From Candidatus Eiseniibacteriota bacterium (GTDB lineage: Bacteria > Eisenbacteria > RBG-16-71-46 > CAIMUX01 > WJJG01), in contig JAGMDA010000025.1 in NCBI GenBank assembly GCA_023128935.1, forward strand, positions 1 through 41,119: a stretch of DNA of 41,119 nt. Reading direction: 5' to 3'. The first letter of the stretch is position 1. Each line of letters opens with the position of its first letter. The translations under genes and the position numbers were made by a program. The notes under the pieces were generated by a model. The model had not been told where the DNA came from. It saw only the letters and a list, made by a program, of their open reading frames with translations, and did not search any database. Positions 1 to 41,073 of this stretch are shown one piece after another.

Positions 1-285
1 GTTCAGAGGATTCCAGCCCTCAGTGATCCGCCCCCCCACCCCCTGCGCTCTCAGTCCCTTGGCAACGTGCGCCTTCCTCGGCGCTCGTGTGGGTGCTGTG
101 GCGAGGATGGCGGAAAAGCAGAAACCGCCAGCCCCAGCTACCAGGCCCTGGGCCGACGGTCCCCACATTATCCTGCAAGACATACGCATAGCGACGGGTG
201 GGCCTGGCAGGACACACGTGTACGATCACTTCAAAAGATACTCACGATGCATTGCCGGTGTCAACCCTCTGGGCGTAGGCGTGCG
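1..285. other. Left-end stretch with no confident gene
   Basis: No recognisable gene lies beyond the stop of the preceding gene at 286. Two weak minus-strand reading frames compete. One runs from GTG at 229 to TGA at 20 (69 codons, Gly/His/Arg-rich, no similarity I recognise). The other runs from ATG at 189 off the window edge (63 codons, with an Ala/Gly/Arg-rich tail). Neither has a clear ribosome binding site. A 15-codon GTGA-coupled frame (289 down to about 242) also follows the preceding gene. A sigma70-like promoter at 235-264 could serve whichever is real, or a gene beyond the edge. Confidence 0.3.
235..264 (-). promoter_or_regulatory. Possible sigma70-type promoter
   Basis: On the minus strand a perfect -35 box TTGACA (264-259) is followed after 18 bases by TATCTT (240-235), four of six matches to the -10 consensus. 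It lies just past the end of the gene stopping at 286 and points to the left edge. The spacer contains one copy of the dispersed hexamer GCAATG. The call rests on sequence only and the -10 box is weak. Confidence 0.35.
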
Positions 286-846
286 TCACCACTGGGTTTC
301 CGGCTGGACAGCCACCCCGAGATAGATCTCGAACTCGCGTTCACATTCACCGCATACCGCCAAGTCTCTGTCACAGAGATAGCCCAGTGGTCCAGTGCAA
401 TATGGGCACATTATCGCAGCGTCAAGGCGCGATTCTTCGAAAATACCACGTTCCAGTCTTCCCAGATCACCGCACTTACTCAGAGCCTTCACCTGAGCCT
501 CAAGCAGTTCAATGCGGTTCAGTGCCTCCCGTAGCTTCCCGGCACACGTCTCACCAAGCGTCTCGTCTCGGCCCGGGAGCAGCCCTATCGGACGCCCCGA
601 TCCGCGCCCCATCAATACGTCGCGCTCGACGGCCAGCACACCCCGAGCTACCTGCTCCGCTACCGCAGCCACCATCACATCCTCGGTGCGGTGCTCCACC
701 TCCAGCCTCTCCGCCTGTCGCTCCAGCCCATCCGCTATATCCCTCAGGTCACCCGCTGTCAGGTCGGGCCTGCCTGCCCACTGCCTCAGCACTGTGGCGT
801 ACACTCTGAGCTGCACCACTATCGCCTCTTGTCGGTCGTCAATCAT
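286..846 (-). CDS. Hypothetical protein with C-terminal zinc ribbon
   Basis: A 186-residue protein whose ATG at 846 overlaps the stop of the DnaB-like helicase gene in an ATGA junction, which fixes the start. The first two thirds look alpha-helical and charged. The last 50 residues carry a CPYC...CGEC arrangement (two CxxC pairs about 18 residues apart) typical of a small zinc ribbon. It is the last confident gene of the early operon and is translationally coupled to the helicase, so a role near DNA replication or regulation is possible, but I do not recognise the family. The function is unknown. Confidence 0.8.
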   Translation of the reverse strand: MIDDRQEAIVVQLRVYATVLRQWAGRPDLTAGDLRDIADGLERQAERLEVEHRTEDVMVAAVAEQVARGVLAVERDVLMGRGSGRPIGLLPGRDETLGETCAGKLREALNRIELLEAQVKALSKCGDLGRLERGIFEESRLDAAIMCPYCTGPLGYLCDRDLAVCGECEREFEIYLGVAVQPETQW

Positions 847-2204
847 CAGAACTCCAATCGTCCTTGCTCCGCCTCGGGCTCGACATACTGCCCGGTTCGC
901 TCGTCCCACTCCACTGTGATTTTCCTCCCACTGTGCCTGCTTCTCTGGTGCTTGAGCAAGATGATTGACGCTGTGTCACCGTCCTGCTCTGCATTGGGAT
1001 AGCCACTGCGCCACGGTGCAATGACGGCCATGGCATCTTGGGTAATTTTCCGCGCTCCTTCGAGGTCAAACATTGACGGGTAGCGGCATCGATAATTAGC
1101 CTTGCTAGCTTCTTTGCTGTCGGGCGGATCCTTGGCCTGGCAGCCGACAAGGATGGGCAGGCGGTATTTCGTCTTCAATAGCTTCAGCCGATTCAGCACG
1201 TACACCATCCGGTCATAGGCGCTCTGGGCGCGGAATTTCTTCTCTATCTCGATGTTCTGGAGGTTCTCGATAATCCACAGGTCGAAGGTCTCGTGATAGC
1301 GTGCAGCCGTAGCCTCGAGGCTCTCGATTGAGTGTGCCGAGTGGGCGAAGGCCACTTGTCGGCCCGCGAGCCAGGCCACGGTTTCCTTGACGAGATCCAT
1401 CGCACGCTCATCAAGATCACCAAGCATAATCTGATCGCTGGCTATCTCGCTGTGCTGGCGGATCACGGCGCGATCAATGAATTCGTCGTAAGGCATATCG
1501 AGCGACTCCACACGCACCCTGTAGCCTGCCCGTGCAGCAGCCAGGACGTGACTGACGATGAGGCTAGATTTCCCCAGATTGGACCAGCCCGTGACAAAAT
1601 ACAGGCCCTCGGACCAGCCGCCTATCAGCTCGTCCAGCACGCGGAATCCAGTCGGGATCCCCGCGAGGCCCGTCGTCGCCCTGGCCTCTATTTTCTGCTC
1701 GAGCCGTTCGATATACGCTTCGTAGCACTCCTCGGGGGTGGGTGGGCACACCTCGGCCATGGCCACATTCTCGGCCTGGGTCTGGAGATCCGGCAGCGCC
1801 TTCGCGTCGCGCCAATCGTCGCCAGTCACGTAGATGTACGCCTGGCAGGCATCCCGCATTTGGCGCACTCTCGCGAGACGTAGCAGCTCCTCGGCGTACT
1901 GATCCATCTTCGCGATGTAAGTCGGGCCTTCGAAGAGCGTCGACACCCGTACGATGGCATCGGGATGCTTCGCCTGATCCAGCTTGGCAGCCACTGATAC
2001 CGCGTCGGCAGTGTCACCTCGCGCGTGCAGCTCCTTGATCGCGCGCAGTGCATCTTGATGAAATAGCGAATACAGCGTGTCGCACTCGACCCGGGCCAAG
2101 GTGGCCTCGGCCTCGTCATGGCAGGCCGTCATGGCGGCACGAAGAAATGCCTGCTCTACGGCCTCGTTGTGCGGCGGTACCTGCCTCAGGCCTTCGTCTG
2201 GCAT
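846..2204 (-). CDS. DnaB-like replicative DNA helicase
   Basis: A 452-residue helicase that should unwind the phage replication fork as an ATP-driven hexamer. An N-terminal DnaB-type helical domain (about 10-115) and a linker lead to a RecA-like domain from about residue 180, with the typical lead-in 'GIPTGFRVLDELIGGW', a Walker A motif GWSNLGKSS (206-214) and a Walker B-like strand LWIIENLQNI (309-318). The Walker B acidic residue is Glu where most DnaB proteins have Asp. The C-terminal part keeps a helicase-type HQRSR.GR segment. Length matches the family. The gene overlaps the upstream initiator gene by 19 bases, a usual phage initiator-helicase pair. The start at 2204 is the first in the frame; no better one is evident. 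Confidence 0.9.
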   Translation of the reverse strand: MPDEGLRQVPPHNEAVEQAFLRAAMTACHDEAEATLARVECDTLYSLFHQDALRAIKELHARGDTADAVSVAAKLDQAKHPDAIVRVSTLFEGPTYIAKMDQYAEELLRLARVRQMRDACQAYIYVTGDDWRDAKALPDLQTQAENVAMAEVCPPTPEECYEAYIERLEQKIEARATTGLAGIPTGFRVLDELIGGWSEGLYFVTGWSNLGKSSLIVSHVLAAARAGYRVRVESLDMPYDEFIDRAVIRQHSEIASDQIMLGDLDERAMDLVKETVAWLAGRQVAFAHSAHSIESLEATAARYHETFDLWIIENLQNIEIEKKFRAQSAYDRMVYVLNRLKLLKTKYRLPILVGCQAKDPPDSKEASKANYRCRYPSMFDLEGARKITQDAMAVIAPWRSGYPNAEQDGDTASIILLKHQRSRHSGRKITVEWDERTGQYVEPEAEQGRLEF

Positions 2205-3199
2205 AGCTCCTCGGGCTTCTTTTCGCAGCCGGGCTGCATACAGCGCCGATTGATATCGAGGAAGCTGTACTTATGCAGCGGGCACATCTCCTCGCCGATG
2301 CGATTCCAGCGTCGGCCGTCGAGGTCAAGGCCATTGGCGTCGATGGGGCCACGGGGGCCGTCGGCGTTGGTGCGCTTCTCGATCTCGACTGGGACCGCCA
2401 CGATACCACCGTCGAGAATCTCCTGGGGACGATCTACGGGCTCACCGGTCTTGCTGTGCCTCTTACGGAAAAACCAGAAGAGCTTGAACCACTTCTCACC
2501 GAGCTTCTGCCGGTAGAACCCGTCGAAGCCTTCGCGCAGGAGCCGCCGCATTGCCCAGAGCGCTACGGCGCAATCGTGCCGGCCCTTGAGGTAGTCGTCG
2601 GCAAGGCCCTCGAACTGTTTGCCCCCTGTGGCCGCCTTGTGCCCGTGCCTCCCTGCCGACTCTACCCAGAGAATCTTGAGCTTTGCCTTGGTCCGTGCCC
2701 GTGGCACCCTTTTCTGAATCTTTCCGTTGGGGACTATAGGGGTCTTTTTCTTTTTCTTTCCCAGGAGAAGAGGGGGAGTATGAGGGGGGGAAGGGGCCGC
2801 TTGCTGGTGCTCCTGAGCACCGCTAGTGGTGCCCCTCGGCACCGGTGCTCCTGAGCACCGGTGCTCCTGAGCACCGCTAGGCTTGTCAATTGGCTTTCCG
2901 CCCCACTCTGCGTTGCTCACTGAATAGACTGACGCGCCATTGGGTGACCTTCTGTGCAGCTTCAGGTATGCGCGCCTCTTGCCCTTGGGATGGTGCGTGC
3001 AAAGCCAATTGACGGCCTTTCGGGCGCTGCGCTTGGACCACCCGAAGCGTCGTGAAAAATCGTTGGGGGAGAGCATCACTTTCCCAGTGCTATCGTGGAA
3101 GGAAATGGCATAGGTGAAAACAATGTATGCCTGATCGTACATGTGCCCCCTGTTAACGTGATCCCAGAGATCGCGCCTTAGCGGGGCATAGCTTTTCAC
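2186..3199 (-). CDS. Probable replication initiator protein with internal origin repeats
   Basis: A 337-residue protein from GTG at 3199, chosen because it forms a GTGA overlap with the upstream stop at 3196. An ATG at 3223 is an alternative. The N-terminal about 90 residues look like a winged helix (LSPNDFSRRFGWSKRSARKAVNWL). A low-complexity linker (about 100-160) rich in Ser, Gly, Pro and Lys follows, then a helical domain. The C-terminus carries a Cys/His cluster (CPLHK...C...GC) that may bind zinc. The linker DNA is a tandem array of 16-bp palindromes (2806-2875) next to a pyrimidine-rich tract, the arrangement of lambda O, where the origin lies inside the initiator gene. Position directly before the DnaB-like helicase supports an initiator or helicase-loader role. 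The assignment comes from architecture and context, not from recognising the family. Confidence 0.65.
   Translation of the reverse strand: MKSYAPLRRDLWDHVNRGHMYDQAYIVFTYAISFHDSTGKVMLSPNDFSRRFGWSKRSARKAVNWLCTHHPKGKRRAYLKLHRRSPNGASVYSVSNAEWGGKPIDKPSGAQEHRCSGAPVPRGTTSGAQEHQQAAPSPPHTPPLLLGKKKKKTPIVPNGKIQKRVPRARTKAKLKILWVESAGRHGHKAATGGKQFEGLADDYLKGRHDCAVALWAMRRLLREGFDGFYRQKLGEKWFKLFWFFRKRHSKTGEPVDRPQEILDGGIVAVPVEIEKRTNADGPRGPIDANGLDLDGRRWNRIGEEMCPLHKYSFLDINRRCMQPGCEKKPEELCQTKA
2806..2875. repeat. Tandem 16-bp palindromic iterons, predicted replication origin
   Basis: Three identical copies of GGTGCTCCTGAGCACC occur at 2806-2821, 2844-2859 and 2860-2875. A diverged copy with its own symmetry, GGTGCCCCTCGGCACC, lies at 2828-2843. 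The last three units abut with exact 16-bp periodicity. CACCGCTAG follows both the first and the last unit. Each unit is a 7+7 palindrome around a CT centre. A T/C-rich tract (about 2738-2762) lies next to the array. Iterons plus a strand-asymmetric easily melted tract inside an initiator gene match lambda-type origins. Confidence 0.7.
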
Positions 3200-3495
3200 T
3201 GGACACCCCGATGCCCCACCCATGCCGGAGCAACGACGCGCGCATTCTTGAAATAACGCCCGTGGATCTTGATCAGGTAGCCGCGCCGCACGAGCGTTCG
3301 GATGGAACTGATAAATTCTCCAGCACTAAGTGCTGTGGTCGTGGCGGTGAAATCTTGGACCGAGACGCCATGCTCGGTGAAGGCATTCTGGTGTTCCACA
3401 ACAAACAAGATGACCATCAGATCGTTGGGCGTAATGGTTTTATCTCTGACCTGAAAAAATAAATCGTGATTGACGTAGTAAACACCTTCACACAT
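3196..3495 (-). CDS. Winged-helix-like DNA-binding protein
   Basis: A 99-residue protein with ATG at 3495 preceded by AGGAGG at the ideal distance (3501-3506). Its centre (ITPNDLMVILFVVEHQ... through IRTLVRRGYLIKIHGRYFKNARVV) has the helix-helix-helix-wing pattern of a winged helix: a predicted recognition helix followed by a 'RRGYL' turn and two beta strands. It precedes the presumed initiator with a GTGA overlap. It could be a replication accessory factor or a transcription regulator. It has its own strong leader, with a hairpin and RBS shared in form with the gene at 14224, so it is probably well expressed. The specific family is not recognised. Confidence 0.6.
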   Translation of the reverse strand: MCEGVYYVNHDLFFQVRDKTITPNDLMVILFVVEHQNAFTEHGVSVQDFTATTTALSAGEFISSIRTLVRRGYLIKIHGRYFKNARVVAPAWVGHRGVQ

Positions 3496-3525
3496 AAAAA
3501 CCTCCTACCCCGACAGCAGCCGGGG
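3496..3525 (-). promoter_or_regulatory. Hairpin leader and strong ribosome binding site
   Basis: Before the ATG at 3495 the minus strand reads a 5-bp hairpin (CCCCG at 3525-3521, loop 3520-3513, CGGGG at 3512-3508), then AGGAGG and five T's to the start codon. The same order, a small GC hairpin then GGAGGTTTTTATG, stands before the gene starting at 14224. The hairpin overlaps the stop of the preceding small gene. It could keep the RBS open, mark an RNA processing site, or end upstream transcription. Confidence 0.5.
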
Positions 3526-3687
3526 ACCAGGCAATCGGCGTAGCCAACTGCCGTCAGGGAGAAGGTAAAATTGGTGGGGCTGGATGCCTGGTCCGTCCCT
3601 ACGCCTTCTCCGATTCTCACTCGCGACCACGCAGGCCGCATGGAGATCGTAGACAACCCGAGCCCCAAGCGTCAAGGGCAATGTCAC
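3505..3687 (-). CDS. Small hypothetical basic protein
   Basis: A 60-residue frame from GTG at 3687 to TAG at 3505, starting just after the stop of the previous gene (3693) and ending just before the next RBS, so it fills the gap exactly. The protein is rich in Leu and Arg (a run of five Arg in the middle) and ends in a Pro/Gly/Leu tail with no domain I recognise. No strong Shine-Dalgarno is visible. Two GCAATG-type hexamers surround the start. It is probably real because of the exact fit between its neighbours, but an untranslated spacer cannot be excluded. Confidence 0.45.
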   Translation of the reverse strand: MTLPLTLGARVVYDLHAACVVASENRRRRRDGPGIQPHQFYLLPDGSWLRRLPGPRLLSG

Positions 3688-3692
3688 ATTGC

Positions 3693-3944
3693 TCACGAGT
3701 TGCGCTCCAGTTGCTCTCTTGCCAGGGCCTCGACGGCCTGGTGGTGCTCGGCGAGCTGCGAGTAACAGGTGCGACAGAGGGGCGGTGCCTGGTGCTGGAT
3801 CAGGATCTCTTGCGACAGCGCCAGGCCGCCCGCCAAAAGTAAATTGTCGAAGAAAGGGAGCCGCCCGCCCACATCCTCGTCGGTGAAGATGCGAGACGCG
3901 CCTATGGCTACCTCGGCGGGCGCACCGCAGATAAAACATTTCAC
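3693..3944 (-). CDS. Small two-CxxC zinc-binding protein
   Basis: An 83-residue protein. The GTG at 3944 makes a GTGA overlap with the methyltransferase stop and has GGAGG eight bases upstream, so it is preferred over longer in-frame starts. The N-terminus begins MKCFICGAPA and a second pair CRTCY sits about 55 residues later, giving a CxxC...CxxC zinc site. The region between is mixed, with a Leu/Ala-rich helix. It belongs to the run of small Cys-rich genes that accompany the methyltransferases (3.7-7.8 kb). Such proteins in phages often act as regulators or anti-restriction factors, but no function can be read here. Confidence 0.65.
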   Translation of the reverse strand: MKCFICGAPAEVAIGASRIFTDEDVGGRLPFFDNLLLAGGLALSQEILIQHQAPPLCRTCYSQLAEHHQAVEALAREQLERNS

Positions 3945-4912
3945 AATCTTGGCCTCCAATTCAAGCACAAAAATGTAAGGCTCTGGCCAGCGCCCGTACC
4001 GCACTCACGCGCCTCCGTATTCGCCCTCAGCCACTCGACACGCTTCGCTGGCAATTGCCCCGCCCGGCTCGTCTCCTTGCCACCCTTGACCGTGACGATC
4101 TTCCTCGGCGCCACCTCGGGAATACAGTCCTCACTGTCGCGGTAGGTGCACCACTCACACATCCCAGCCTGCTGAGGCAGCAGCGCCCCGTATCCCATCT
4201 CCTCAGCCTCCTCGACGATGAAATCCCCCTCGTATCGCCCCGAGAAACCAACCTCGAAGATGAACCAGCCATATGTCATCTGCCCCTTGATTCGGTGGTC
4301 TACGCGCCCCTCGGGATAAAAATTGATCCGCGAGACGAACTGATAAAATCTCCTGAGCTGCCTCGACCTGAATAGCCCCGCGTATCGAGCCTTGCCCTCA
4401 AAGAGCTGCGTACGCTGGAGTACACACACGAGGCCGCCAACCTTGACGATCTCGAGCAATGCCTGGACGACCTCAGAGCAGCGGTTGAATGGCGGGTTGA
4501 CACAGGCTGCGTCGAAAGAATCCGGATCGTAGGGACTCGCGAGAATGTCCACACCGCCCACGCCTGTGATGTGCTGGCCCGCGCGAATATCCGACGCCTC
4601 GACGACCCGGCCTATCCTGCACTGACCTCGGTGGATGTCGTAGAGGCCACGCCCATTGGCCGTGATTTCCGCGAGATCCCCGCGGACATTGTCGCCGACG
4701 AAGATGTCTGGCCAATAGCCCCCGAGCTCCCCGGTCATCGCCCCCCGCCCGCAACAGGGGTCAAGGATGTCACTGGCCAGGGCGAGCTTCGGTTCCCTCC
4801 GGAGCAGAGACCGAGTCACGTGCGGGGGTGTCTCGTAGCAGTCATGGGCAATGATCTCACTCGTCATTTCCTCGGGGGTGCGCAGCTTGCGCTCGTTGCC
4901 AACCCTACCCAT
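3941..4912 (-). CDS. DNA methyltransferase, NPPF type (probably N6-adenine)
   Basis: A 323-residue protein with the AdoMet-binding motif I ILDPCCGRGAMTGEL (around 49-63) and the catalytic motif IV VNPPF (138-142). The motif order I then IV and the NPPF tetrad place it among amino-methyltransferases (adenine N6 or cytosine N4); NPPF usually goes with adenine. The early YETPPHVTRSLL segment resembles substrate-entry regions of phage adenine methyltransferases. A C-terminal Cys cluster (CEWCTY...DC) may bind zinc. No endonuclease is beside it, so it is probably an orphan enzyme protecting phage DNA. The start ATG at 4912 overlaps the end of the 39-residue gene upstream by 8 bases. The target sequence is unknown. 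Confidence 0.85.
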   Translation of the reverse strand: MGRVGNERKLRTPEEMTSEIIAHDCYETPPHVTRSLLRREPKLALASDILDPCCGRGAMTGELGGYWPDIFVGDNVRGDLAEITANGRGLYDIHRGQCRIGRVVEASDIRAGQHITGVGGVDILASPYDPDSFDAACVNPPFNRCSEVVQALLEIVKVGGLVCVLQRTQLFEGKARYAGLFRSRQLRRFYQFVSRINFYPEGRVDHRIKGQMTYGWFIFEVGFSGRYEGDFIVEEAEEMGYGALLPQQAGMCEWCTYRDSEDCIPEVAPRKIVTVKGGKETSRAGQLPAKRVEWLRANTEARECGTGAGQSLTFLCLNWRPRL

Positions 4913-5024
4913 GCTTCATCCTCTCGCTCCGTCGGGGCCGCCATCGCCCAAAAATAGCCTCGAGCAATGCGCGGTCGCGGTATGTTTCCCGGTACCACTC
5001 ACGCTTCCGTTTTTTGAGGCTCAT
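4905..5024 (-). CDS. 39-residue basic peptide gene between two methyltransferase genes
   Basis: The frame starts at ATG 5024, overlapping the stop of the cytosine methyltransferase gene in an ATGA junction, and ends with TAG at 4905 inside the first codons of the next methyltransferase gene. It exactly bridges the gap. The peptide (MSLKKRKREWYRETY at the start, WRPRRSERMKHG at the end) is very rich in Lys and Arg with aromatic residues, as expected for a small nucleic-acid-binding or translation-coupling peptide. The fit of both ends with the neighbours' overlaps is the main evidence. The function is unknown. Confidence 0.6.
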   Translation of the reverse strand: MSLKKRKREWYRETYRDRALLEAIFGRWRPRRSERMKHG

Positions 5025-5875
5025 TCCATTGCCCTTCTTGCAAGAGTGATAAATGCAAGCGCCACCACTGCCGGAACGACTCCATTGCCACAGGCTCTAA
5101 GCTCACCCACCCGGTTGGTAGGCCCATGAGCCACTCCACAAATCGCGGGTTGAGTCGCGGGTAGAGCTGCGCGCCATCCTTCGTAGTCGTCTGGCCCTGG
5201 TGGAAATGCTCGGCCTCGACCTTCAGCCCCGGTGAGCGCCGCGCAAGCTGCGATGGGCAATTCCCTCGGCCCTCTACCGTTGCCGTCGGCGTGCTCCACA
5301 TCCGTATTGCATCCGTCAGTGTCGTGCCCGCGTGGGTTTTTACGCTCGTGTAGCCAGCCTTCCCGGAGCTGCGCGAGTCTGTCGCGGTCGCGGTGGGCCA
5401 GGATGAAGAGTCTCTCTCGCCTGTGCGGTGCGCCGACATCGGACGCTCGAAACATTCCCCACTCCGCGTCGAACCCGAGCGAGGCCAACGATCCAAGAAC
5501 GGGACCGAGCCCCCCAGCAATGAGCCCTGGGACGTTTTCCAAGAAAACGATTCCGGGCTCCACCTCGCCAATAATGCGCGCGATGTCGGGCCAGACCCAT
5601 CGGTCGTCCTCGGTGCCCTTTTGCTGGCCGGCGCAGCTCCACGGCTGGCACGGGAATCCCGCAGTGATGATATCCACCGCCCCACGCCACCCTGCGCCGC
5701 AGAAGGTCGCAATGTCAGACCAGATAGGCGCCTGAGGCAATGTCCCGTCTTCCATGCGCGCGACCAACATTGCGGACGCATAAGTCTCCCTCTCCACGTG
5801 ACACACTGTGCGATAGCCGAGAATGGCAAGTGATAATCCGAGCGTGAAGCCGTCGTAGCCGGAACATAGAGCCAT
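5021..5875 (-). CDS. DNA cytosine-5 methyltransferase
   Basis: A 284-residue C5-methyltransferase, taking the ATG at 5875; a GTG ten codons earlier at 5905 is possible but overlaps the previous gene by 25 bases. Motif I reads LCSGYDGFTLGL (3-14). The catalytic loop GFPCQPWS (73-80) carries the nucleophile Cys76. ENVPG (113-117) is motif VI and HRRERLF (151-157) is motif VIII. The C-terminal GNGVVPAV matches the motif X region. All core motifs are intact, so the enzyme should be active. The target-recognition region between about 165 and 230 is short and has no recognisable specificity. With no partner nuclease nearby it is probably an orphan phage enzyme that blocks host restriction. Confidence 0.93.
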   Translation of the reverse strand: MALCSGYDGFTLGLSLAILGYRTVCHVERETYASAMLVARMEDGTLPQAPIWSDIATFCGAGWRGAVDIITAGFPCQPWSCAGQQKGTEDDRWVWPDIARIIGEVEPGIVFLENVPGLIAGGLGPVLGSLASLGFDAEWGMFRASDVGAPHRRERLFILAHRDRDRLAQLREGWLHERKNPRGHDTDGCNTDVEHADGNGRGPRELPIAACAALTGAEGRGRAFPPGPDDYEGWRAALPATQPAICGVAHGPTNRVGELRACGNGVVPAVVALAFITLARRAME

Positions 5876-5880
5876 GCCAT

Positions 5881-6138
5881 TCAATTTCGCTCCCTCCACG
5901 GCCACGGATGCAGCTTGAATTCACGCCCACCAACGCATGTCAGGCAACGGTGAACCATGAAATATCGACAGTATTTGCAGCCCGGGAAGCGCGTCAGGCG
6001 CAGGTGGTGAAGCCGCTGCTGCTCCTCGCCGAAGGTCCAATGCTGTCGGCAGCTCTCGCAGTAGTACGCGCTGAGTTTCAGCGGGTCGGTTAGCGCCACA
6101 GGATGCGCGGGGCCTCCGCATTTTGGACAAGCAGTCAT
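5881..6138 (-). CDS. Small zinc-ribbon protein
   Basis: An 85-residue protein with three CxxC pairs: CPKC near the N-terminus (4-7), CESC around residue 27, and CKYC...CLTC near 54-68. The first two pairs could form one zinc ribbon and the last two a second. The ATG at 6138 overlaps the previous stop (6135) as ATGA. It sits directly upstream of the C5-methyltransferase. The C-terminus HPWPWRERN is aromatic and basic. The family is not recognised. It is one of five consecutive Cys-rich genes, which suggests a nucleic-acid-related or anti-restriction role. Confidence 0.7.
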   Translation of the reverse strand: MTACPKCGGPAHPVALTDPLKLSAYYCESCRQHWTFGEEQQRLHHLRLTRFPGCKYCRYFMVHRCLTCVGGREFKLHPWPWRERN

Positions 6139-6341
6139 CCTTCTCCCCGCTTCCGAATCGTATTGACCAACATTGCAATCTCCATCCGCGTGTCACACTC
6201 CAGCACCGTGCCACAGCGACAGCAACAGAACGTATACACCGCGCCATCGAGCCTCTCACGGCAGTGATCGTGGAAGTTTTGTATCAACTCAGTCTCGCGG
6301 ATGAAGTAACCGCAATGCGGGCATTTTTTGGTGTTGCTCAT
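6135..6341 (-). CDS. Small zinc-ribbon protein
   Basis: A 68-residue protein with an N-terminal CPHCGYF and a central CCCRCG, spaced about 30 residues apart, a classic four-Cys zinc ribbon with extra cysteines. A short helix (RMEIAMLVNTIRKRG) ends the protein. It is coupled to both neighbours by 4-base overlaps (6338/6341 and 6135/6138), so it should be co-translated with them. No specific function is recognised. Confidence 0.7.
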   Translation of the reverse strand: MSNTKKCPHCGYFIRETELIQNFHDHCRERLDGAVYTFCCCRCGTVLECDTRMEIAMLVNTIRKRGEG

Positions 6342-7177
6342 TGGCTGTCCTCGCTGCCTGCACAGTCAGGGCAATCGTATTCCTCAGCCTCACCCATACA
6401 TATTTCGCAGGCGCCACAATTGTCATAGCAATAGCCCTGCTGTAACTTCCCTGTCCCGCCACAGGTCTGGCACGCCCTCGGCAATGCGGCAGCGAGATCA
6501 GCAAGAGCGTTCAGCATTTCATCGGTCGGCATAATTTTCGATGTTTCTGCCCATTCGGCACGTGCTTTTTCCACAGCCCGCGCCAATGTCTCGAACTCGC
6601 GGAGCCGCTCCCTCGCCGCATTGGGCAACGGCCCGACCTCCAGCAATAATCCGAGGTCCTCTACTGCGCAGCAATGTGCGCAGTCCCTGTCGCGTTTGAT
6701 GCCGAGCCGGTCGCTACTTTCGAAGCACTCGCATGGCACACCATCAGTCACCGTCTGACATGCCTCCTCGATGCCGCGAAGCCGCTCACGAAGCTGACGT
6801 ACCTCTATTGCCAGAGCGCCGTAATCTTTTCCGTATTTCTCGATCCGCACGTCTCTATCGTGGCGCTGATTTTTGATGCGCCGATGGCAGTCGCACGCAT
6901 AGTCAACCTGCCCCGCCGCCTCCTTTGCGTGCCTTTCGAGTTCATCACGAACCTTGCGTTCACCGGTAAGCTTCTCCCTGATTTCCCATGCGTAGCACAG
7001 CGGGATTGTGACGAATAGCTCCTCCCGCCCTATTGCGCTATCAATCTCATCGTTAAAAATCTGCTCCCCTGAAATTGCAAGGTCGCTCTTCGCTGTCCCA
7101 CCGCAAGAGGGGCAATTGCGATACCGGATGCCGTCATGCCAACTTCCGGTACCACCACAATTTTTGCATTCTTTCAT
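6338..7177 (-). CDS. Protein with DnaJ-type CxxCxGxG zinc motifs at both ends
   Basis: A 279-residue protein from ATG 7177, chosen for its ATGA overlap with the stop at 7174 and the GAGGGA before it. The N-terminus has CKNCGGTGSW...CPSCGGTAK and the C-terminus CQTCGGTGKL...CEICMGE...CPDCAG, both the pattern of the DnaJ zinc domain. The middle (about 60-220) is charged and helical, probably coiled coil, with further Cys pairs near 95-100 and 160-170. There is no J-domain HPD motif, so it is not a co-chaperone of the usual kind. Phages often carry such proteins in early operons with unknown roles. It may act as a scaffold binding nucleic acid or protein. Confidence 0.7.
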   Translation of the reverse strand: MKECKNCGGTGSWHDGIRYRNCPSCGGTAKSDLAISGEQIFNDEIDSAIGREELFVTIPLCYAWEIREKLTGERKVRDELERHAKEAAGQVDYACDCHRRIKNQRHDRDVRIEKYGKDYGALAIEVRQLRERLRGIEEACQTVTDGVPCECFESSDRLGIKRDRDCAHCCAVEDLGLLLEVGPLPNAARERLREFETLARAVEKARAEWAETSKIMPTDEMLNALADLAAALPRACQTCGGTGKLQQGYCYDNCGACEICMGEAEEYDCPDCAGSEDSQ

Positions 7178-30555: not shown

Positions 30556-30570
30556 GTTGCCTCGCTCCTA

Positions 30571-31402: not shown

Positions 31403-31406
31403 TTCT

Positions 31407-32694: not shown

Positions 32695-32707
32695 TGCTTT
32701 GCTTGCC

Positions 32708-33627: not shown

Positions 33628-33658
33628 TTTTCCTCCGTCGGGTCGATAGGGATCGGCA

Positions 33659-33684: not shown

Positions 33685-33690
33685 CATCAA

Positions 33691-34392
33691 TCAGAGAGTA
33701 GCGCTCGCGCCGACCTGGCTGGCGAGCCGGTGGCGTAGACCATAGCCCTCGGCGACGACCGATACCGTCCCATTTGCCGTCGTGGTGACCTTGGCGGCGA
33801 CGTGCGAGAACCCCGAGCTGAGCTTGGACACGTCGAGGTCGACGAATGCTTGACACTCGTTGGTCGCGACGGTCACGGTACCGCCTACATCGGTGCTCGT
33901 GATCGTCAGGGCAACGTCGTCATCGTCGCCCGGATCGCTCGGGTACAGAAGGACATTGGTGGTCGACGCCAATGCCTCGACGCCCGGCACACCATAGACG
34001 GCATGGTTGACACACAGGACCAGGCCCGCGGCGTCGGCGAACGTCCGCGTTGCCACGGCGGTCGTGCCCTGCGTAAACGTGAGCCCGTTGATAACGACAA
34101 GGTCCCCTGCGCCCGCACTTGCGAGGGCCACCGTAGCCTTCGTCACAAGTGTGTTTGCGGTCACCGTGGCAGTTGCCCCACTGATCGCAGCCGCCGAGGT
34201 GCCATCCTCATCGGTCGCCTCGTAGAGCGCGATAATTGTGGTTTTCGTGGCCGCCATCGCTCCACCCATGAGGTGGAAGCAGGCACGCGGGAAATTCTTG
34301 ACATTGATGTACCGTCCCGTGACGTTGGTGTTGTTCAGCGCCTGGCAGACCACGGCGACGAGGAACTGAACCATTTCGGCAAGCCGTTTCAT
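33691..34392 (-). CDS. Head-region protein, possible capsid decoration protein
   Basis: A 233-residue protein after the major capsid gene. The start ATG 34392 lies in GCAATG. It begins with a hydrophobic helix (MVQFLVAVVCQAL) and a conserved-looking YINVKNFPRACFHLMGGAMAAT, then is almost entirely Thr/Ala/Val-rich predicted beta structure (ISGATATVTANTLVTKATVALASAGAGDLVVINGLTFTQ). The second half contains DLDVSKLSSGFSHVAAKVTTTANGTVSV. It is bracketed by hairpins on both sides, so its mRNA is probably set to its own level. Position and beta-rich composition suggest a decoration protein, but I do not recognise the family. Confidence 0.6.
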   Translation of the reverse strand: MKRLAEMVQFLVAVVCQALNNTNVTGRYINVKNFPRACFHLMGGAMAATKTTIIALYEATDEDGTSAAAISGATATVTANTLVTKATVALASAGAGDLVVINGLTFTQGTTAVATRTFADAAGLVLCVNHAVYGVPGVEALASTTNVLLYPSDPGDDDDVALTITSTDVGGTVTVATNECQAFVDLDVSKLSSGFSHVAAKVTTTANGTVSVVAEGYGLRHRLASQVGASATL

Positions 34393-34446
34393 TGCTTCGT
34401 CCTTCCGTCAGATGTTCGAGTCTCGGGTTCCCGGGAAAGAGGTAAA

Positions 34447-34464
34447 GGCGGGCCGAAGCCCGCC
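34447..34464 (-). terminator. UUCG hairpin after the capsid gene
   Basis: On the minus strand GGCGGGC TTCG GCCCGCC forms a perfect 7-bp stem with the very stable UUCG tetraloop, six bases after the capsid stop (34470), followed by TTTACCTCTTT. It may partly end transcription or protect the abundant capsid mRNA from 3' decay. The short U-run makes full termination doubtful. Confidence 0.75.
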
Positions 34465-34469
34465 CGTTG

Positions 34470-35837
34470 TCACTTCAAGATCACGTAGGGGCTCACTTCG
34501 GTGCTGGCGTCTCCCAGCGTGAGCGGCTCGCGGCACCACCCCTGACCGTCGACGGACTTCACGATCTTGACGATGGTCTTGTTTGCCAGGTAGTCGTAGT
34601 GCGGGGACATCCCGATGAGCGGGCCGAAGCCTTCGCGGACGATGTAGTGAGACAGATCCAGGAGACTGAGATCGCCGAGGGTGCCGAGCACCGGAACACG
34701 GCCGCTCCACAGGAAGGGGATACCGTCGAGCGAGGCAGGGAAACCCTTCACGAGATTGTCGTCCGTGTAAAGGCGGTTGCCGCTGGAGTCCTTCATGTCC
34801 TTACACTGGACGAATCCGGAGCGACTACCTACCCACACACAAGCGTCCTGCGACTCGGGATACAGGGCTGCCTGCATCGCCAAGATATCCTCGTAGAGCC
34901 ACTTGCTCGCGGTGTTGCGGGTGATCAGGATGCGCCCTGGCGTGTAAATGACACCCAGGGGCTTGCCCGCACCGTTGCCGCGCAGGAAGGTATAATCCTC
35001 GGCCGAGGCGAGTGCCTGACCAAGCAGATCCATGATAAATGCCTCGGCTGCCGGCGCATTGCGCAGGAGCTTGTCCGTGACTTTGCAATAGGCCGTGACC
35101 TCCTTGGGATCGAGTGTGATGTCCTCGATCTTGGCGTCGGTCTCGGTCATGGTCGCACCCTCGGCGGCCCACACGACAGAGGCGCCACCCTCGGCGCCGT
35201 CGCCGCCCTGCGTCAGGGCAGGGATGGTGAGGGGTGCGTCAGGAGAGGCTCCAGCCGGGATGACTCGCGCACGGGAGCGGACAATGCCGCGCTCGGAGGA
35301 AAGCTTGAGAAGTTGATTTACCATGACCTCCGGGGCCACGAAGAGACCGCCCTCGGCGCCGATGCCCATGGAGAATGCGCGCTTCTCACTGATGCCCAGC
35401 TCCATGGCCCTTGCTGCGTATCGGCGACAATGCTCGGCCATTCGTTCCGAGCGGGGCGCGAAGCGCATGGCCTCCAGGAAATCACCCGAGGTGCGAAACT
35501 CGTCCTGCTCGGCAGGCGTTACGGTCGGGTTCTGTGCGCGGATCTCGGGGTCGTTGGTCGGCGTCTGCGTGGGGTCCTGCCGCTGCGCTGCTACTGCTGC
35601 GGGGATCTCCTGTGCGCTACGGACTTCGCCCTCCATCGCCTGGAGACGGTGCTCGCGTTCTTTCTCGTCAAGCTCCGTACGGACCTCGGCGAGCGTCACT
35701 TCGATCTCGCTGAAGCGCTTCAGTTCCTCTTCGGTGAGCTGTCGCTTCTCCACCTTGATGAGGTCGAGCAGCGCGCGAGCCTCCTTGGTCAGCTCTTCAC
35801 GCTGGCGCCGCAGTTCGAGAATCTTCTGATACAACAT
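34470..35837 (-). CDS. Major capsid protein (HK97 fold)
   Basis: A 455-residue protein from ATG 35837, preferred for its GGAGATCA RBS and short gap from the protease; upstream in-frame starts lie within the protease gene. The first about 75 residues form a highly charged coiled coil (RQREELTKEARALLDLIKVEKRQLTEEELKRFSEIEVTLAEVRTE), the delta or scaffold region that the protease removes. The remainder carries the capsid signatures: GGLFVAPEVMVNQLLKL, LDPKEVTAYCKVTDKLLRNAPA, DYTFLRGNGAGKPLGVIY, KDSSGNRLY and GIPFLWSGRVP. It has no separate scaffold gene, consistent with a fused delta domain. Confidence 0.95.
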   Translation of the reverse strand: MLYQKILELRRQREELTKEARALLDLIKVEKRQLTEEELKRFSEIEVTLAEVRTELDEKEREHRLQAMEGEVRSAQEIPAAVAAQRQDPTQTPTNDPEIRAQNPTVTPAEQDEFRTSGDFLEAMRFAPRSERMAEHCRRYAARAMELGISEKRAFSMGIGAEGGLFVAPEVMVNQLLKLSSERGIVRSRARVIPAGASPDAPLTIPALTQGGDGAEGGASVVWAAEGATMTETDAKIEDITLDPKEVTAYCKVTDKLLRNAPAAEAFIMDLLGQALASAEDYTFLRGNGAGKPLGVIYTPGRILITRNTASKWLYEDILAMQAALYPESQDACVWVGSRSGFVQCKDMKDSSGNRLYTDDNLVKGFPASLDGIPFLWSGRVPVLGTLGDLSLLDLSHYIVREGFGPLIGMSPHYDYLANKTIVKIVKSVDGQGWCREPLTLGDASTEVSPYVILK

Positions 35838-35854
35838 TGATCTCCATCCTCTCT

Positions 35855-36475
35855 TTATGCCAGCGTCAACAGACGGCGCTCGAGTTGTTCGAGCTGCTGG
35901 CTCCACGTTGCAGAGGGCTGCGTGCCCTCGGGCCCAGTGCCGCTGGTGGCACGAAATTCGTCGTATACTTCCTTGGCTGATCGAACGTCTGAAGACGTCG
36001 TCGGGTAGGCAGGGAACGTCACGGGGCCGACATCGTAGAGCCGGCTGACCTCGATGATGGTGCGGACGGGGGGATCTATCGTCTCGTCCCACTCCTCCTT
36101 CGAGAGCCGGAATCCGAAGCTGGATTCTCGAATGTCGCCTCGGTCCATGCTCACGATGAGATCGCGTGCCCACTGCGCATCGGGCGGATCAATCTCATAC
36201 CGGAGGCCGTGGTCGTCCTCGAAGAGGCGTAGCGTCCCGGCGCTTGCCCTGCCGAGCACCTTGCCGTCGTCGTGGTTGTACAGCGCCCGCACGTCGTCAC
36301 GGTCGAGAGCAGCCAGGAATGCGCCTGGCCGAATCTTCTCGCGGAAGCCTCCGAGGTCCAATGAAAGCTCGTTGAAGCGTGCGGCATAGCCCACAATCTT
36401 CGGCTTCCCGTCCGCGCTACGAACGATCTTCGGCTGGTCCCTCAGGGTACGGATTTCACGCTTCGGCTGCGCCAT
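35855..36475 (-). CDS. Prohead protease (HK97 family)
   Basis: A 206-residue serine protease that trims the capsid N-terminus after prohead assembly. Start ATG 36475 with GAAGGAGG five bases before it; longer in-frame starts overlap the portal gene more. Core motifs VGYAARFNELS, the catalytic His68 in ALYNHDDGKVLG and the catalytic Ser in IRESSFGFR (118/119), then VSRLYDVGPVTFPAYP at the substrate-binding end. All expected features of the U35 family are present. Confidence 0.93.
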   Translation of the reverse strand: MAQPKREIRTLRDQPKIVRSADGKPKIVGYAARFNELSLDLGGFREKIRPGAFLAALDRDDVRALYNHDDGKVLGRASAGTLRLFEDDHGLRYEIDPPDAQWARDLIVSMDRGDIRESSFGFRLSKEEWDETIDPPVRTIIEVSRLYDVGPVTFPAYPTTSSDVRSAKEVYDEFRATSGTGPEGTQPSATWSQQLEQLERRLLTLA

Positions 36476-37766
36476 CAGGCCCTCCTTCGTCGTCATCTTG
36501 GGATGGGGAAGGTGATGGATCCTTGGGCGCCTGGCCCTTGTCGGCATAGACAAGCTGCCCGGCAGGAACCATGTTCATCGGATTCAGGAATATCTGACCC
36601 TGGCCGTCAGGCAGGGGATTCTTGTCGAACATTTCCCGCACATCGTCAGCGCACCACCAGCCCCATTGCCGACCAACCGCGAAGCCCTCATTCTGGGATT
36701 TGAAATCGCCACGCATTAGGCCGGCGAGATTGGTCTTGATGTAGAGCCCGGCTCGCCGTTCGTCACGAGTCAGAAGCCTGCGACTCAGCGCCTGGTCCCA
36801 TCGAGAGCACCACGGAGCGTGTGTGTCGTTGGCATTGTCGATGTTCGAATGCTCAATATTGGTGTAGTGCGCGTGGCTGTAGTCCATCACCTTGTGGGGC
36901 TGTACGCGAAACCATCGGCATATCTCGGGGATGGAAAATGCTCGCGTCTCCAGGAACTGCGCGTCGTCGGGCGAGAGGCTCGTCTGCCGCCACTTCATCC
37001 CCTCTTCAAGGATCATATATCGGTGGGAATTCTCTAGCCCCTGGTGCTCAGCCATGGATTTTTGGAGCCGCCCGAAACCAACGTCTCCCAGCTCCGAGGG
37101 GTGCTCGAGTACGCCGGATGGCTTGACGCCATTGGCGAAAAACCGCGAGCCGAATTCCTCGGTGGCCATCGCGTGCCCTAGCGATTCCCGAGCCTGCCGA
37201 ATGACCGAGTACCCTACCAGGCCATCAAAGCCCAGCCCCCTGTAGTGCAGCACCAAGTGCGCAGGCAAGATAACTTGCCGACCGCCGGGTACACACGTAC
37301 GATACTGGAGCTGCCGAGTCAGCTTGTCACGCTCGGGCCACGTGCGATCCGGCAGGAGGGGCCACAGGGCCACAGGGAAACCCGCTGCGTCTCGCTGGAT
37401 CTCTGCATACGCATTGCCAAATGTCACAGCGTGAGCGTCCATTGTCTCGCGGAACTCGAACCACGTCATCCCTGGGTTGGGATCGCTGAGCAAGTACACC
37501 ACGGGGTGGTCGGTAATAACCTCGCGTGACTGCCCCTCCTTGCGAAGCAGATGTATCGGGAGCCCCGCCCTAGTGCCGGCATGGACGTTGACACAGGCCC
37601 AGACGGCCGAGAGATTCATTGCCGTGGCCTCTGTGACGACAGGGCCGGCTGCCGTTGCGGCGTAAAGCGAAGTGAGCTGTGTGCTCAGGTACGTAGCGGC
37701 GGAGAGCTTTATGCCGCGCACCTTGCGCCAGACCAGAGATAGTGCTCGCCGTACTCGACTGAGCAT
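36456..37766 (-). CDS. Portal protein (HK97 family)
   Basis: A 436-residue portal, the dodecameric ring through which DNA enters and leaves the head. MNLSAVWACVNVHAGTRAGLPIHLLRKEG and DHPVVYLLSDPNPGMTWFEFRETMDAHAVTFGNAYAEIQRDAAGFPVALWPL are the family signature. GLGFDGLVGYSVIRQARESLG and the C-terminal WCSRWDQALSRRLL...FDFKS-type segments follow. It overlaps the large terminase stop as TAATG. The C-terminal PSPSQDDDEGGPDGAAEA is acidic and disordered. Confidence 0.95.
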   Translation of the reverse strand: MLSRVRRALSLVWRKVRGIKLSAATYLSTQLTSLYAATAAGPVVTEATAMNLSAVWACVNVHAGTRAGLPIHLLRKEGQSREVITDHPVVYLLSDPNPGMTWFEFRETMDAHAVTFGNAYAEIQRDAAGFPVALWPLLPDRTWPERDKLTRQLQYRTCVPGGRQVILPAHLVLHYRGLGFDGLVGYSVIRQARESLGHAMATEEFGSRFFANGVKPSGVLEHPSELGDVGFGRLQKSMAEHQGLENSHRYMILEEGMKWRQTSLSPDDAQFLETRAFSIPEICRWFRVQPHKVMDYSHAHYTNIEHSNIDNANDTHAPWCSRWDQALSRRLLTRDERRAGLYIKTNLAGLMRGDFKSQNEGFAVGRQWGWWCADDVREMFDKNPLPDGQGQIFLNPMNMVPAGQLVYADKGQAPKDPSPSPSQDDDEGGPDGAAEA

Positions 37767-39508
37767 TAGCCTACCACCCTCACGTCGCGCCGCTCGTAAA
37801 TGCTTGTTTCGTCCTTGCTAATGATAGCACGGCCAACCGCCATGATGTCTGCCACGACGCCATCAATCTTGTTTTCCCGGGCTTCCTTGACCGGGTAGAT
37901 GTTGTCCTTTTTGTCCTCGCGTGCAACCACATTGCTTATCATCCAGGTCTGGACCGGGTCGCCGTTGTGGTGGTAGGTCCCGGCGATGACGCTTGCCTCG
38001 AGCTGCTTCATTGGCTCGGAGAATTCTTTGACAATCGCGGGGATCTCAACCATTGGCATGCCCTCTTTGGCCATCCGTGTCGCGAACTCGGTCGCCTGGA
38101 AAGGATCGTAGCCGACCGCTTCAATCTGGAAGATGGTCTTCAGCTCAACCAAGTCATCCTCGATAACCTCGAAGTCAATGATGGCGCCCTCTGTCTCAGT
38201 GAGCCAGCCCTCCTCGCGCCATTGTCGGTAGTGCTCGTTCTCCTTTTTTTCGATGGTATCCTCGGGGAGGTAATACTTGCCGAAGCTGTAGTAGTGCCAC
38301 TTGAGGCGCTCCTCGTCGGGCGTCTTCGGGTTGTAGATGGGCCTTCGGAACAGGATCCGCATTGCCGCAATGTCGACTTTCGACGCAAGATCGAGACCTA
38401 TCCAACACTTGCAGCCGACGAAGTCACTCATCGACAAGGAAGTGTCGGCGCATTTTCGCCAGGCAATCAGATCCATCCATGCGGTGTGGGTGCGGTTCCA
38501 GATATTGAGGTGGCGACAAAGCAGGACGTTTCGACGGCGGACATTTCGCAGCGCCGTCTGGTATTTCTCCTTGAGCCTTTCCTTGAGGACCGAGACGGCA
38601 TAGTTCGGATTCGCCTTGATCCAGGTATCAAATTCCTCCCACGAATCATCCTTGTCGACCGTGTAGATGACGCAGAAGAGCTTCTCATTCTCGAAACCTT
38701 CGATCCGCTCAAGCACCTTCGTGACGGCGGTACGCTTGGCATAGCAGGGGCCGGCGATGTTCTCTCCAGCCGTCGTGATGACGACGCCCAAGGGCTGCTC
38801 TCTGGAGCCTGTGCCGGTCTCCATTGCGTCGTAGAGCACATCCTTGCGGTGCTCGTGATACTCATCGACGATGAAGCACGACGGGCTTGCGCCCTCTCCG
38901 GGATCCCCCACCAACGGCTCGAACTTCGCTGCCGTGTCCAGAATTGAGACGTTCTTGACACCTATCGTCAGGCCGTAATGCTCCTTGAACTTGGGTGACT
39001 TTAGGGCCATCAGACGCGCCGGGCCGAACACCTCAAGGGCCTGCTTCTCCTTGGTCGCACCGCTGTAAACCTCTGGACCTACCTCGCCGTCGGCGACGAA
39101 CATCCACAGGCCGATGATGGCTGCCAGGGTGCTCTTGGCATTCTTGCGCGGGATCTCCCCATAGAATTCCGTGAAGCGGCGCAGGTCGTCGTCCTTGCCG
39201 ACCCACCCAAAGAGCGTGGTGAGGATGAAGCATTGCCAGGGCTCAAGGTGTATTTCCCTCCTCGGATCGCCCACGGCGGGCTTGGCCCATTGCGCCTTGA
39301 CGTGCACGAGGCCCTCGGCGAATCTGCAAATCCGATGGGCCTTCTGCTCGTCGAAACGGTACGGCCAATCAGCATCCGGTATGCGGGCGAGGTCGTCCAC
39401 CTGCCGCTGGCAGGCGAGCCGGACCCACTTGCACGCAGGGGTGGTGCCCGAAAGCACGGCCACCACGTAGGCCATGGCCATTGCGACATACCTGCTCGGC
39501 TTACCCAT
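37766..39508 (-). CDS. Terminase large subunit
   Basis: A 580-residue packaging ATPase-nuclease. Start ATG 39508 (MGKPSRYV), within eight bases of the small subunit stop; an upstream frame extension exists but is not needed. Walker A-like EIPRKNAKST (118-127), Walker B CFIVDEYHEH (211-220), and a coupling segment ITTAGENIAGPCYAKR follow the Terminase_1 family. The RNase H-like nuclease has WIGLDLASKVD, EAVGYDPFQ and IDGVVADIMAVGRA, giving the three acidic metal ligands. The family is the HK97 / P27-partner type. Confidence 0.95.
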   Translation of the reverse strand: MGKPSRYVAMAMAYVVAVLSGTTPACKWVRLACQRQVDDLARIPDADWPYRFDEQKAHRICRFAEGLVHVKAQWAKPAVGDPRREIHLEPWQCFILTTLFGWVGKDDDLRRFTEFYGEIPRKNAKSTLAAIIGLWMFVADGEVGPEVYSGATKEKQALEVFGPARLMALKSPKFKEHYGLTIGVKNVSILDTAAKFEPLVGDPGEGASPSCFIVDEYHEHRKDVLYDAMETGTGSREQPLGVVITTAGENIAGPCYAKRTAVTKVLERIEGFENEKLFCVIYTVDKDDSWEEFDTWIKANPNYAVSVLKERLKEKYQTALRNVRRRNVLLCRHLNIWNRTHTAWMDLIAWRKCADTSLSMSDFVGCKCWIGLDLASKVDIAAMRILFRRPIYNPKTPDEERLKWHYYSFGKYYLPEDTIEKKENEHYRQWREEGWLTETEGAIIDFEVIEDDLVELKTIFQIEAVGYDPFQATEFATRMAKEGMPMVEIPAIVKEFSEPMKQLEASVIAGTYHHNGDPVQTWMISNVVAREDKKDNIYPVKEARENKIDGVVADIMAVGRAIISKDETSIYERRDVRVVG

Positions 39509-39986
39509 CGAGATCACCCCAGTGATCATCGGCCTTGGCGGGATCCCACGAGCGTGTGCCCGACACATTTGTACGGCTGCTCGGAGTCATGCCGAACTCG
39601 GCGACGAAGGATCTCATCAGCAGCAGGGCTTTGTTCGCGATTGACAGGTACGGCGATTGCATAGGGGTCTCGTTCTTGGGGGACTTGACGACCATGCCGA
39701 ATTTGCGTATTTGCTCCTCGGCGTAGACCCAGCGCCCGTACACCACGCAGTAAGCCTCGAGCGCAACGAGATCCACTTCGGTGAGGAGCCCGAGCCGGTG
39801 GAGGATGGGGGCAATGCGTAGCCACTCCCTCGCGGCTACGGCGTCTAGCGAATCCGGAGGCCTCGGTACGTCGTCTCGGATGGGGGGCTGCGGCTCGTCA
39901 TGGTTGACGCGTTGCGGGTCGTGCTTGGCGGAGCCGGTCAGCTCCTTCAGGTTTTTCGGCTTCGGTGCCGGTCCTCTACGACCCAT
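39501..39986 (-). CDS. Terminase small subunit (P27 family)
   Basis: A 161-residue protein starting MGRRGPAPKPKNLKELTGSAKHD, the hallmark of P27-type small terminases, with PDSLDAVAAREWLRIAPILHRLGLLTEVDLVALEAYCVVYGRWVYAEE in the helical core. It binds the packaging site and regulates the large subunit. The overlaps with both neighbours (11 bases upstream, 8 downstream) support the start. It is a small-large pair in the standard order. Confidence 0.92.
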   Translation of the reverse strand: MGRRGPAPKPKNLKELTGSAKHDPQRVNHDEPQPPIRDDVPRPPDSLDAVAAREWLRIAPILHRLGLLTEVDLVALEAYCVVYGRWVYAEEQIRKFGMVVKSPKNETPMQSPYLSIANKALLLMRSFVAEFGMTPSSRTNVSGTRSWDPAKADDHWGDLDG

Positions 39987-41073
39987 CGAGCACCGCCTTC
40001 TGGTCGGTGAGTGTCTCCCAGCGCTGCACTATCACGTCGCAGTAGCCGGGATCTATTTCGTGAGCGACACACTTGCGCTCAAGTTGCTCGGCGGCAATCA
40101 ACGAAGTACCGCTGCCGGCAAACGGATCGAATATCAGGCCATCGGTGCAGTTCCCGATCAGCATCCGAATCCAGTCAAGCGGCTTGGCGTGGGAGTGCGC
40201 TGTGGCCCGCTGCGTGATGGGGAACTGGAAGATATCGGACAGGTGCTTGCCTCGCGGGTCGGGCGTGTACTGATAGCTTCCTCGGCTGTTCGTCGCCACC
40301 TTGGCTTCGCCCGGCTCTCCGTAGTGGGAGCCGTTGAAGTCGTAGTTGAGCGGCCCGTAAAGCAGGCAATACTTGCCTCGTCGGAGCGGCCTGCCGGGTG
40401 TGTACCAGGAGGTAACGCAATCCCAAGTAAAGCACCATGCTGGCGAGCCAAACGCACTCACAACATCGCCCAGGCGGAACCCATCGCAGAACGCAAGCAC
40501 ATTGGTAGCGTGGACTTCGCGCGCCGGGATTTCCTTGTCCCACGGCGGATCGAAAATGTAGCAGCCAATATCCTCCGGTACCGGAGCACGCAAGCTGTCC
40601 CCGCACAGCAGTCGGTGCGCACCCATCAGCCACAGATCGCCAGGCTTGGTTACCGGATTCTCTGGCGGATCGGCAGGAGGTGGAGCGCTGCGCGGAGCTG
40701 GCTGCACCAGTGCGTCGAGTCTCAGCAGTCCGCTAGGATCGAATTCCTTCAGCTCCACCAGCAACGGCTGGAGCGAGGCCGTGAAGTCACCCGCAATGTG
40801 CGGATTGTTGCACGTGATGTTGAGTGCTTTCTCTTTGATCTCGTCGAGGTCGACCACCACCACACGTGTCTCGGTGTCGCCACGAGCAAGTAGCACCCTG
40901 AGTCGCTGGTGACCAGAGACCACGTTGCCGGTGCGCTTATTCCAGACTATCGGCTGCACATTGCCGAAGCGCTCAACCGAAGCCGTGAGTCCTGCCAGGG
41001 ATTCGCTGCTGATCGAGCGTGGGTTGTAGTCGGCAGGCGCCAGGGAGGCCAAGGTTTTCTTGCGTATGATCAC
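39976..41073 (-). CDS. ParB-like domain fused to beta-class DNA methyltransferase
   Basis: A 365-residue protein, GTG 41073 chosen for a GTGA overlap with a frame coming from the right edge; the frame itself stays open to the edge. Residues 5-95 are a ParB/sulfiredoxin-like domain (DYNPRSIS at 15-22; VVSGHQRLRVLLARG at 51-65). From about 145 a methyltransferase follows with DPPW (175-178) before FDPFAGSGT (315-323). Catalytic motif first and AdoMet motif later is the beta class, which methylates adenine N6 or cytosine N4. Such ParB-methyltransferase fusions sit next to terminase in many phages. The role may be modification coupled to packaging or to protection of DNA. Confidence 0.9.
   Translation of the reverse strand: MIIRKKTLASLAPADYNPRSISSESLAGLTASVERFGNVQPIVWNKRTGNVVSGHQRLRVLLARGDTETRVVVVDLDEIKEKALNITCNNPHIAGDFTASLQPLLVELKEFDPSGLLRLDALVQPAPRSAPPPADPPENPVTKPGDLWLMGAHRLLCGDSLRAPVPEDIGCYIFDPPWDKEIPAREVHATNVLAFCDGFRLGDVVSAFGSPAWCFTWDCVTSWYTPGRPLRRGKYCLLYGPLNYDFNGSHYGEPGEAKVATNSRGSYQYTPDPRGKHLSDIFQFPITQRATAHSHAKPLDWIRMLIGNCTDGLIFDPFAGSGTSLIAAEQLERKCVAHEIDPGYCDVIVQRWETLTDQKAVLDGS

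Follow-up and report, generated by a model that had tools for sequence, protein, structure and literature searches.

Introduction

In cyanobacteria, HIP1 and its alternates are over-represented words that coincide with matching methyltransferases, and a model of methylation-directed repair has been proposed for them (PMC4390886). In Helicobacter, CCGG, a methylated site, is over-represented (PMC4687349). Whether iterated words such as HIP1 originate by selection or by methylation-biased repair is a long-standing question. Phages normally avoid short words, and the Chi sites are asymmetric words of 5-8 bases. Here we describe a phage genome in which one short asymmetric word is strongly iterated on both strands, and compare it with these systems.

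Results and Discussion

The phage and its metagenome bin

The window, by which we mean the whole stretch of 41,119 nucleotides that was analysed, is contig C168 in a metagenome bin of 4.59 Mb from Candidatus Eisenbacteria. RpoC of this bin shares 73% and 62% identity with that of Candidatus Eisenbacteria MAGs and ~50% or less with that of others. The window encodes a tailed phage, with terminase, portal, HK97-type capsid, tape measure, J-like tail protein and DnaB helicase, and a recombination module comprising a Cas4/AddB-like exonuclease, an SbcC-like ATPase and a RuvC-like resolvase. An Rfam scan and a tRNA scan of the window gave no matches. The parts referred to below are as follows (RCATTGC is the word under study).

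249..14091, no strand: left backbone with 33 RCATTGC sites; replication, recombination and two methyltransferase genes
14092..18008, no strand: island without sites, 3.9 kb, 68.3% GC
18009..40964, no strand: right backbone with 47 RCATTGC sites; lysis, tail, head and packaging genes
12278..13396, minus strand: Cas4/AddB-like exonuclease of the recombination module (PHROG 1706/1990, TIGR00372)
37766..39568, minus strand: terminase large subunit with 7 hexamer sites (PF20441, PF03354)

Short tandem and inverted repeats of GGTGCTCCTGAGCACC at 2797-2880, within gene 2186-3223 adjoining the DnaB helicase, are a possible origin or protein-binding site. The product of 7174-7839 (minus strand) carries an N-terminal zinc-ribbon like that of the restriction alleviation protein Lar (PF14354, E 5e-6, just below the cut-off).

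Size of the excess

The original prediction was that the hexamer GCAATG (CATTGC on the other strand) occurs about 103 times where about 17 copies are expected, a sixfold enrichment. We counted 103 copies against a zero-order expectation of 17.2 (6.0-fold), which ranks first among hexamers, split between 44 GCAATG and 59 CATTGC. Copies do run across the phage, from 250 to the last at 40959-40964, but not uniformly, with none between 14,091 and 18,009. Expectations rise with Markov order, from 24.0 (order 1) through 26.4 (order 2) and 46.5 (order 3) to 84.1 (order 4). At order 4, where GCAATG had been predicted to be an extreme outlier, it was among the top five (z 4.2) but was not the single most extreme; this test is saturated, since the motif is already contained in GCAAT and CAATG, both of them top 5-mers. 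The related hexamers CATTGG and CATTGA, given earlier as about 8 to 15 copies, are in fact present 27 and 25 times.

Synonymous codon shuffling, in which proteins and codon usage are kept, gave 86 copies in coding sequence against 30.0 (z ~12), again the top hexamer. When genes were called more simply and the SD was given a Poisson floor, the figures were 85 against 34.0 (z 8.8). Moreover, CATTGC was the top hexamer in each of three disjoint parts of the backbone, with 38 vs 9.6 in 1-13.4 kb, 39 vs 9.3 in 18-30 kb and 23 vs 7.3 in 30-41 kb. The excess of GCAATG/CATTGC in the window is real.

The unit is a heptamer

What is iterated is not the hexamer but a heptamer, RCATTGC (= GCAATGY): a purine precedes CATTGC in 80/103 copies, and further positions carry <=0.1 bit. 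GCAATG had been identified as the recognition sequence of BsrDI, and its six letters do match, but the phage unit has seven. Against 11.8 ± 3.6 copies in dinucleotide shuffles (maximum 24), RCATTGC occurs 80 times, ~seven times chance. In codon shuffles ACATTGC (34 vs 6.6) and GCATTGC (31 vs 9.6) are both in excess, with CCATTGC and TCATTGC close to expectation; ACATTGC is the top heptamer in all three backbone parts (14 vs 1.6 in 1-13.4 kb). The word is asymmetric and not palindromic, with 39 GCATTGC and 41 ACATTGC vs 8 GCATTGT and 5 ACATTGT. One-base variants are about as frequent as expected in codon shuffles; the exceptions are CATTTC (22 vs 11) and changes of the final base, which are mildly raised.

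These variants bear on whether a mutational or repair bias of phage replication makes RCATTGC, with neither benefit nor methyltransferase. The weak excess of CATTGA/G/T (65 vs 44) could represent steps to or from the site, as such a bias might leave. However, single-base precursors are not depleted (CATCGC 44 vs 46, CACTGC 28 vs 28, CGTTGC 23 vs 26) and seven bases make a long context for a mutation signature, and we consider this explanation very unlikely. A single-step deamination source, CATCGC to CATTGC, is rejected on the CATCGC count.

Layout on the genome

As originally described, copies lie in both orientations and inside many genes. Both coding orientations are enriched (47 and 39), sites occupy all three codon phases in either of them, and 86/103 copies are within genes, with equal densities in coding and noncoding DNA (17 copies in 6.3 kb of the latter). 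RCATTGC thus shows the genome-wide over-representation in coding and noncoding DNA by which HIP-type words are recognised. It had also been argued that neither gene starts nor a protein motif explain the copies. Both points hold, as about 3/103 sites supply a start codon, ruling out a gene-start signal, and the excess extends over all frames and both strands and persists in codon shuffles. The hexamer fills 38.6% of protein-permitted positions, first among 180 anagram pairs, and hexamer-permissive positions are only mildly raised (223 vs 182); therefore synonymous choice is the main route of the pressure. The dipeptide Ala-Met is also raised (44 vs 26), as is His-Cys (11 vs 4).

Chance, codon usage or repeated protein motifs would be the simplest source of such a count. 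Hexamers of other phages reach codon-shuffle z of ~3-8, and when IMG/VR was scanned for triple GCAATGY clusters, two strong, high-density matches among those listed proved to be protein repeats. Here, however, z values of 9-12, occurrence in every frame, on both strands and in noncoding DNA, and recurrence in three independent thirds leave this reading practically refuted.

Outside the island, the spacing of sites fits a random distribution, ruling out regular spacing, and 48/102 neighbours have the same orientation. No tandem or dispersed longer repeats extending the motif were found. Examples of sites in inverted pairs are:

3678..3692, no strand: inverted pair of sites, GCAATGTCACATTGC (from the site list)
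38359..38373, no strand: second close inverted pair, GCATTGC C GCAATGT, within the terminase gene

Strand symmetry, the absence of phase and the presence of sites in noncoding DNA therefore point to a reader of double-stranded DNA rather than of RNA or protein, and the random spacing and orientation of neighbours likewise fit a site at the DNA level. We infer that the word acts on the DNA level via a protein. That one phage has built up an asymmetric word so strongly, and symmetrically on its two strands, implies a DNA-level reader that works genome-wide.

A site-free island

The island is the most foreign part of the window, with a tetranucleotide distance to the rest of 0.43 against 0.15-0.27 for other 4-kb windows. 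Its own composition predicts only 0.3 sites, and the backbone carries 2.8 per kb; the gap therefore means that the backbone density of sites does not extend into the island. From its composition, the island reads as acquired DNA in which the word was not gained. It carries a 544-aa acidic ORF (15662-17296, plus strand) starting MTNTNTNTNTNT, with a tandem ACCAAC repeat at 15665-15703, and an ORF at 14491-15039 (minus strand) that is weakly DUF6782 metallopeptidase-like.

The presumed host and related phages

A sample of the bin (163 kb) contains 126 sites vs 106 expected at Markov order 1 and 91-120 at orders 2-4, and the genome-wide density of the word in the bin is 0.56/kb. In this sample a Y is commoner than an R before CATTGC. 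Among 47 genomes of the class (the bin and 46 others) there was no outlier for the word, and none nears the density of the phage. Per-contig enrichment was examined in about 40 contigs of the bin; those with close site pairs (C138, C637, C846, C863, C870 and others) showed no preference for RCATTGC, and the cluster in C138 has mostly Y before CATTGC. If the bin is the host, these results lend no support to two of the meanings first offered, namely a host-wide oligonucleotide bias and an uptake-like tag that phage and host have in common.

Relatives were sought with the terminase large subunit as query, and about 100, comprising terminase-based IMG/VR loci and GenBank phages, were compared. Their highest hexamer ratio was 2.6 vs 3.85 in the window, and their highest heptamer z 4.0 vs 18.6. 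By terminase, the nearest relative (60% identity) carries 3 heptamers vs 2.3 expected. A family-wide phage trait is ruled out, as TerL relatives (41-60% identity) and 13 GenBank phages lack an RCATTGC excess. Close relatives were not found in IMG/VR by portal, DnaB, tail, capsid or TerL, nor in GTDB genomes by TerL; a dispersed match among those listed in the IMG/VR scan, G047 (36.8 kb), has 64 vs 45 expected. In the literature we did not find a phage report of the word RCATTGC. Since the bin, the 46 other class genomes and the ~100 relatives are without the excess, it is neither host-wide nor inherited across the phage family. The excess is phage-specific, and composition, codons, genes and the presumed host do not explain it.

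The enrichment had been called unusual for a phage, which is true of its size but not of its kind. When 14 phages were compared with the window by codon shuffling, the top hexamer of the window was highest (z 8.8) and those of the others reached ~4.0-7.8; hexamer biases are thus common in phages, and that of the window is the strongest seen among the 14 compared. Within a relative, L333 (IMGVR_UViG_3300028004_000001), the palindrome CTCGAG occurs 25 times vs ~6 expected in 8 kb, and this is possibly another iterated-word phage. Marinobacter phage AS1 (L198), with two annotated methyltransferases, has 26 GGTACC vs 10 in codon shuffles.

The host data also weigh on a Chi-like role, in which RCATTGC would attenuate a host AddAB/RecBCD-type nuclease and feed recombination, so that numerous copies in both orientations would benefit a phage whose DNA is linear. 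The recombination module, the random placement of sites on both strands and the asymmetric 5-8-mers that serve as known Chi sites would all suit such a role. Chi is normally host-enriched, however, and the presumed host, with its 126 vs 106 and more Y than R, is not enriched for RCATTGC, so another host would be required. No Chi-type orientation bias along replication was seen in the phage, which alone was examined (44/59; same-orientation neighbours 48/102). We regard a Chi-like role as quite unlikely.

Absence of CGATCG

CGATCG, the PvuI site and HIP1 core, is missing from the whole window (0 vs 29.95 in shuffles and ~40 by Markov-2), including the island, where 6.7 are expected. The window does contain many GATC (251), and in the bin CGATCG has its normal frequency (88 vs about 80-100). 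Because restriction is the usual cause of such an absence, at least one of the phage's hosts probably has an enzyme specific for CGATCG; the binned organism may be that host, or it may not. In a 20-kb stretch of phage contig L372 (IMGVR_UViG_3300012041_000029), with a ParB domain 65% identical to that of the window, there are 0 CGATCG vs 8.9 expected, hinting at a restriction pressure common to both.

One reading of the word builds on such a host: the window would be misbinned, and the true host would use RCATTGC genome-wide as a HIP- or uptake-like signature that the phage shares. GC of the window is 61% vs ~58% in the bin, its tetranucleotide distance is 0.22 vs 0.09-0.20 among bin contigs, and CGATCG, absent here and normal in the bin, suggests a host with a CGATCG restriction enzyme. 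On the other hand, the scan, confined to the 47 genomes of the bin's own class, revealed none that bears such a signature, and to our knowledge phages do not usually adopt the HIP or uptake tags of a host in full. We therefore consider this reading unlikely.

Candidate readers of the word

Three phage methyltransferases had been proposed, and three putative genes are present.

39976..41073, minus strand: candidate reader, a ParB_N domain fused to a beta-class N6/N4 DNA methyltransferase (PF01555 1e-13, PF02195 3e-4)
3941..4912, minus strand: candidate reader, putative DNA methyltransferase (PHROG 799, E=3e-26; NPPF motif in the translation)
5021..5905, minus strand: unlikely candidate reader, C5-cytosine methyltransferase, HhaI-like N-terminal part (TIGR00675 8e-26; HhaI 2e-15)

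The ParB fusion adjoins the terminase small subunit, and its PDB matches are DNA methyltransferases, including MboIIA, and Spo0J. Genes of this type are common in phages (443 records). A frame at 4999-5880 (minus strand), which likewise matches a DNA methyltransferase family (PHROG 1008, 2e-28), overlaps that of the HhaI-like gene, the matched parts sharing ~320 nt; this may represent dual coding, a frameshift or a split gene.

Our preferred reading, to which we give a probability of about one in three, is that RCATTGC is a double-stranded DNA recognition site multiplied over the phage backbone by a phage-specific pressure, with a methyltransferase as the driver. It rests on analogy and on the candidate genes. 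This DNA methyltransferase would be sequence-specific and would act on the genome of the phage, and our guess is that it is one of the phage's own three. The most plausible would be the ParB fusion beside the terminase or the PHROG-799 enzyme, as beta-class N6/N4 methyltransferases include enzymes with asymmetric targets, e.g. MboII. For the HhaI-like enzyme a short palindrome would be expected as target, which speaks against it. The phage contig with the 65% identical ParB domain has no excess of the word, and the ParB domain alone is therefore not the reader. Sites could be gained by either of two routes: the modified base may be useful to the phage, for self-marking or protection, or methylation may tilt mismatch repair to retain the site, as proposed for HIP1.

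The same sequence evidence would be left if RCATTGC were bound by a different protein of phage or host that benefits from numerous scattered sites, for instance a factor in nucleoid structure, replication, packaging or segregation. Random spacing and both orientations suit a protein that coats or condenses DNA. Yet no such protein was recognised among the tested ORFs of the window, and a dimeric binder rarely has a short asymmetric site, making this possible but rather doubtful.

Returning to the methyltransferase reading, a further step would be that the phage has evolved a signature of its own across the genome: a mark of seven bases, not palindromic, which an enzyme encoded by the phage reads and by which phage DNA is told apart from host DNA. 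We advance this tentatively. If true, the self-signature, whether for modification, packaging or protection, would be the viral counterpart of HIP1. At 41 kb and with no more than three candidate methyltransferases, this genome is a tractable test case for the origin of iterated words.

Comparison with known systems

HIP1 (GCGATCGC and alternates, in cyanobacteria) resembles RCATTGC in being a short word far over expectation on both strands, in coding and noncoding DNA, and in both cases methyltransferase genes lie in the same genome as the word. However, HIP1 is palindromic and belongs to bacterial chromosomes, whereas RCATTGC is asymmetric and phage-confined, its link to a methyltransferase is only a candidate one, and the HIP1 core is entirely absent from the phage. 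Chi sites share asymmetry and dispersal, at 5-8 bases, but are host-enriched and oriented, unlike the phage word, which has no orientation bias and is not enriched in the bin. DNA uptake sequences (DUS/USS) are similarly dispersed on both strands, at about one per 0.5-1 kb; they are, however, tags of naturally competent bacteria, and the host bin is not enriched for the phage word. Mycobacteriophage stoperators and start-associated sequences are likewise repeated, short and phage-specific, but are intergenic, oriented and longer, whereas RCATTGC is mostly intragenic, unoriented and seven bases long. The site of BsrDI and M.BsrDI, GCAATG, equals the first six bases of GCAATGY. By this comparison RCATTGC can be described as a non-palindromic, phage-borne variant of the highly iterated oligomers.
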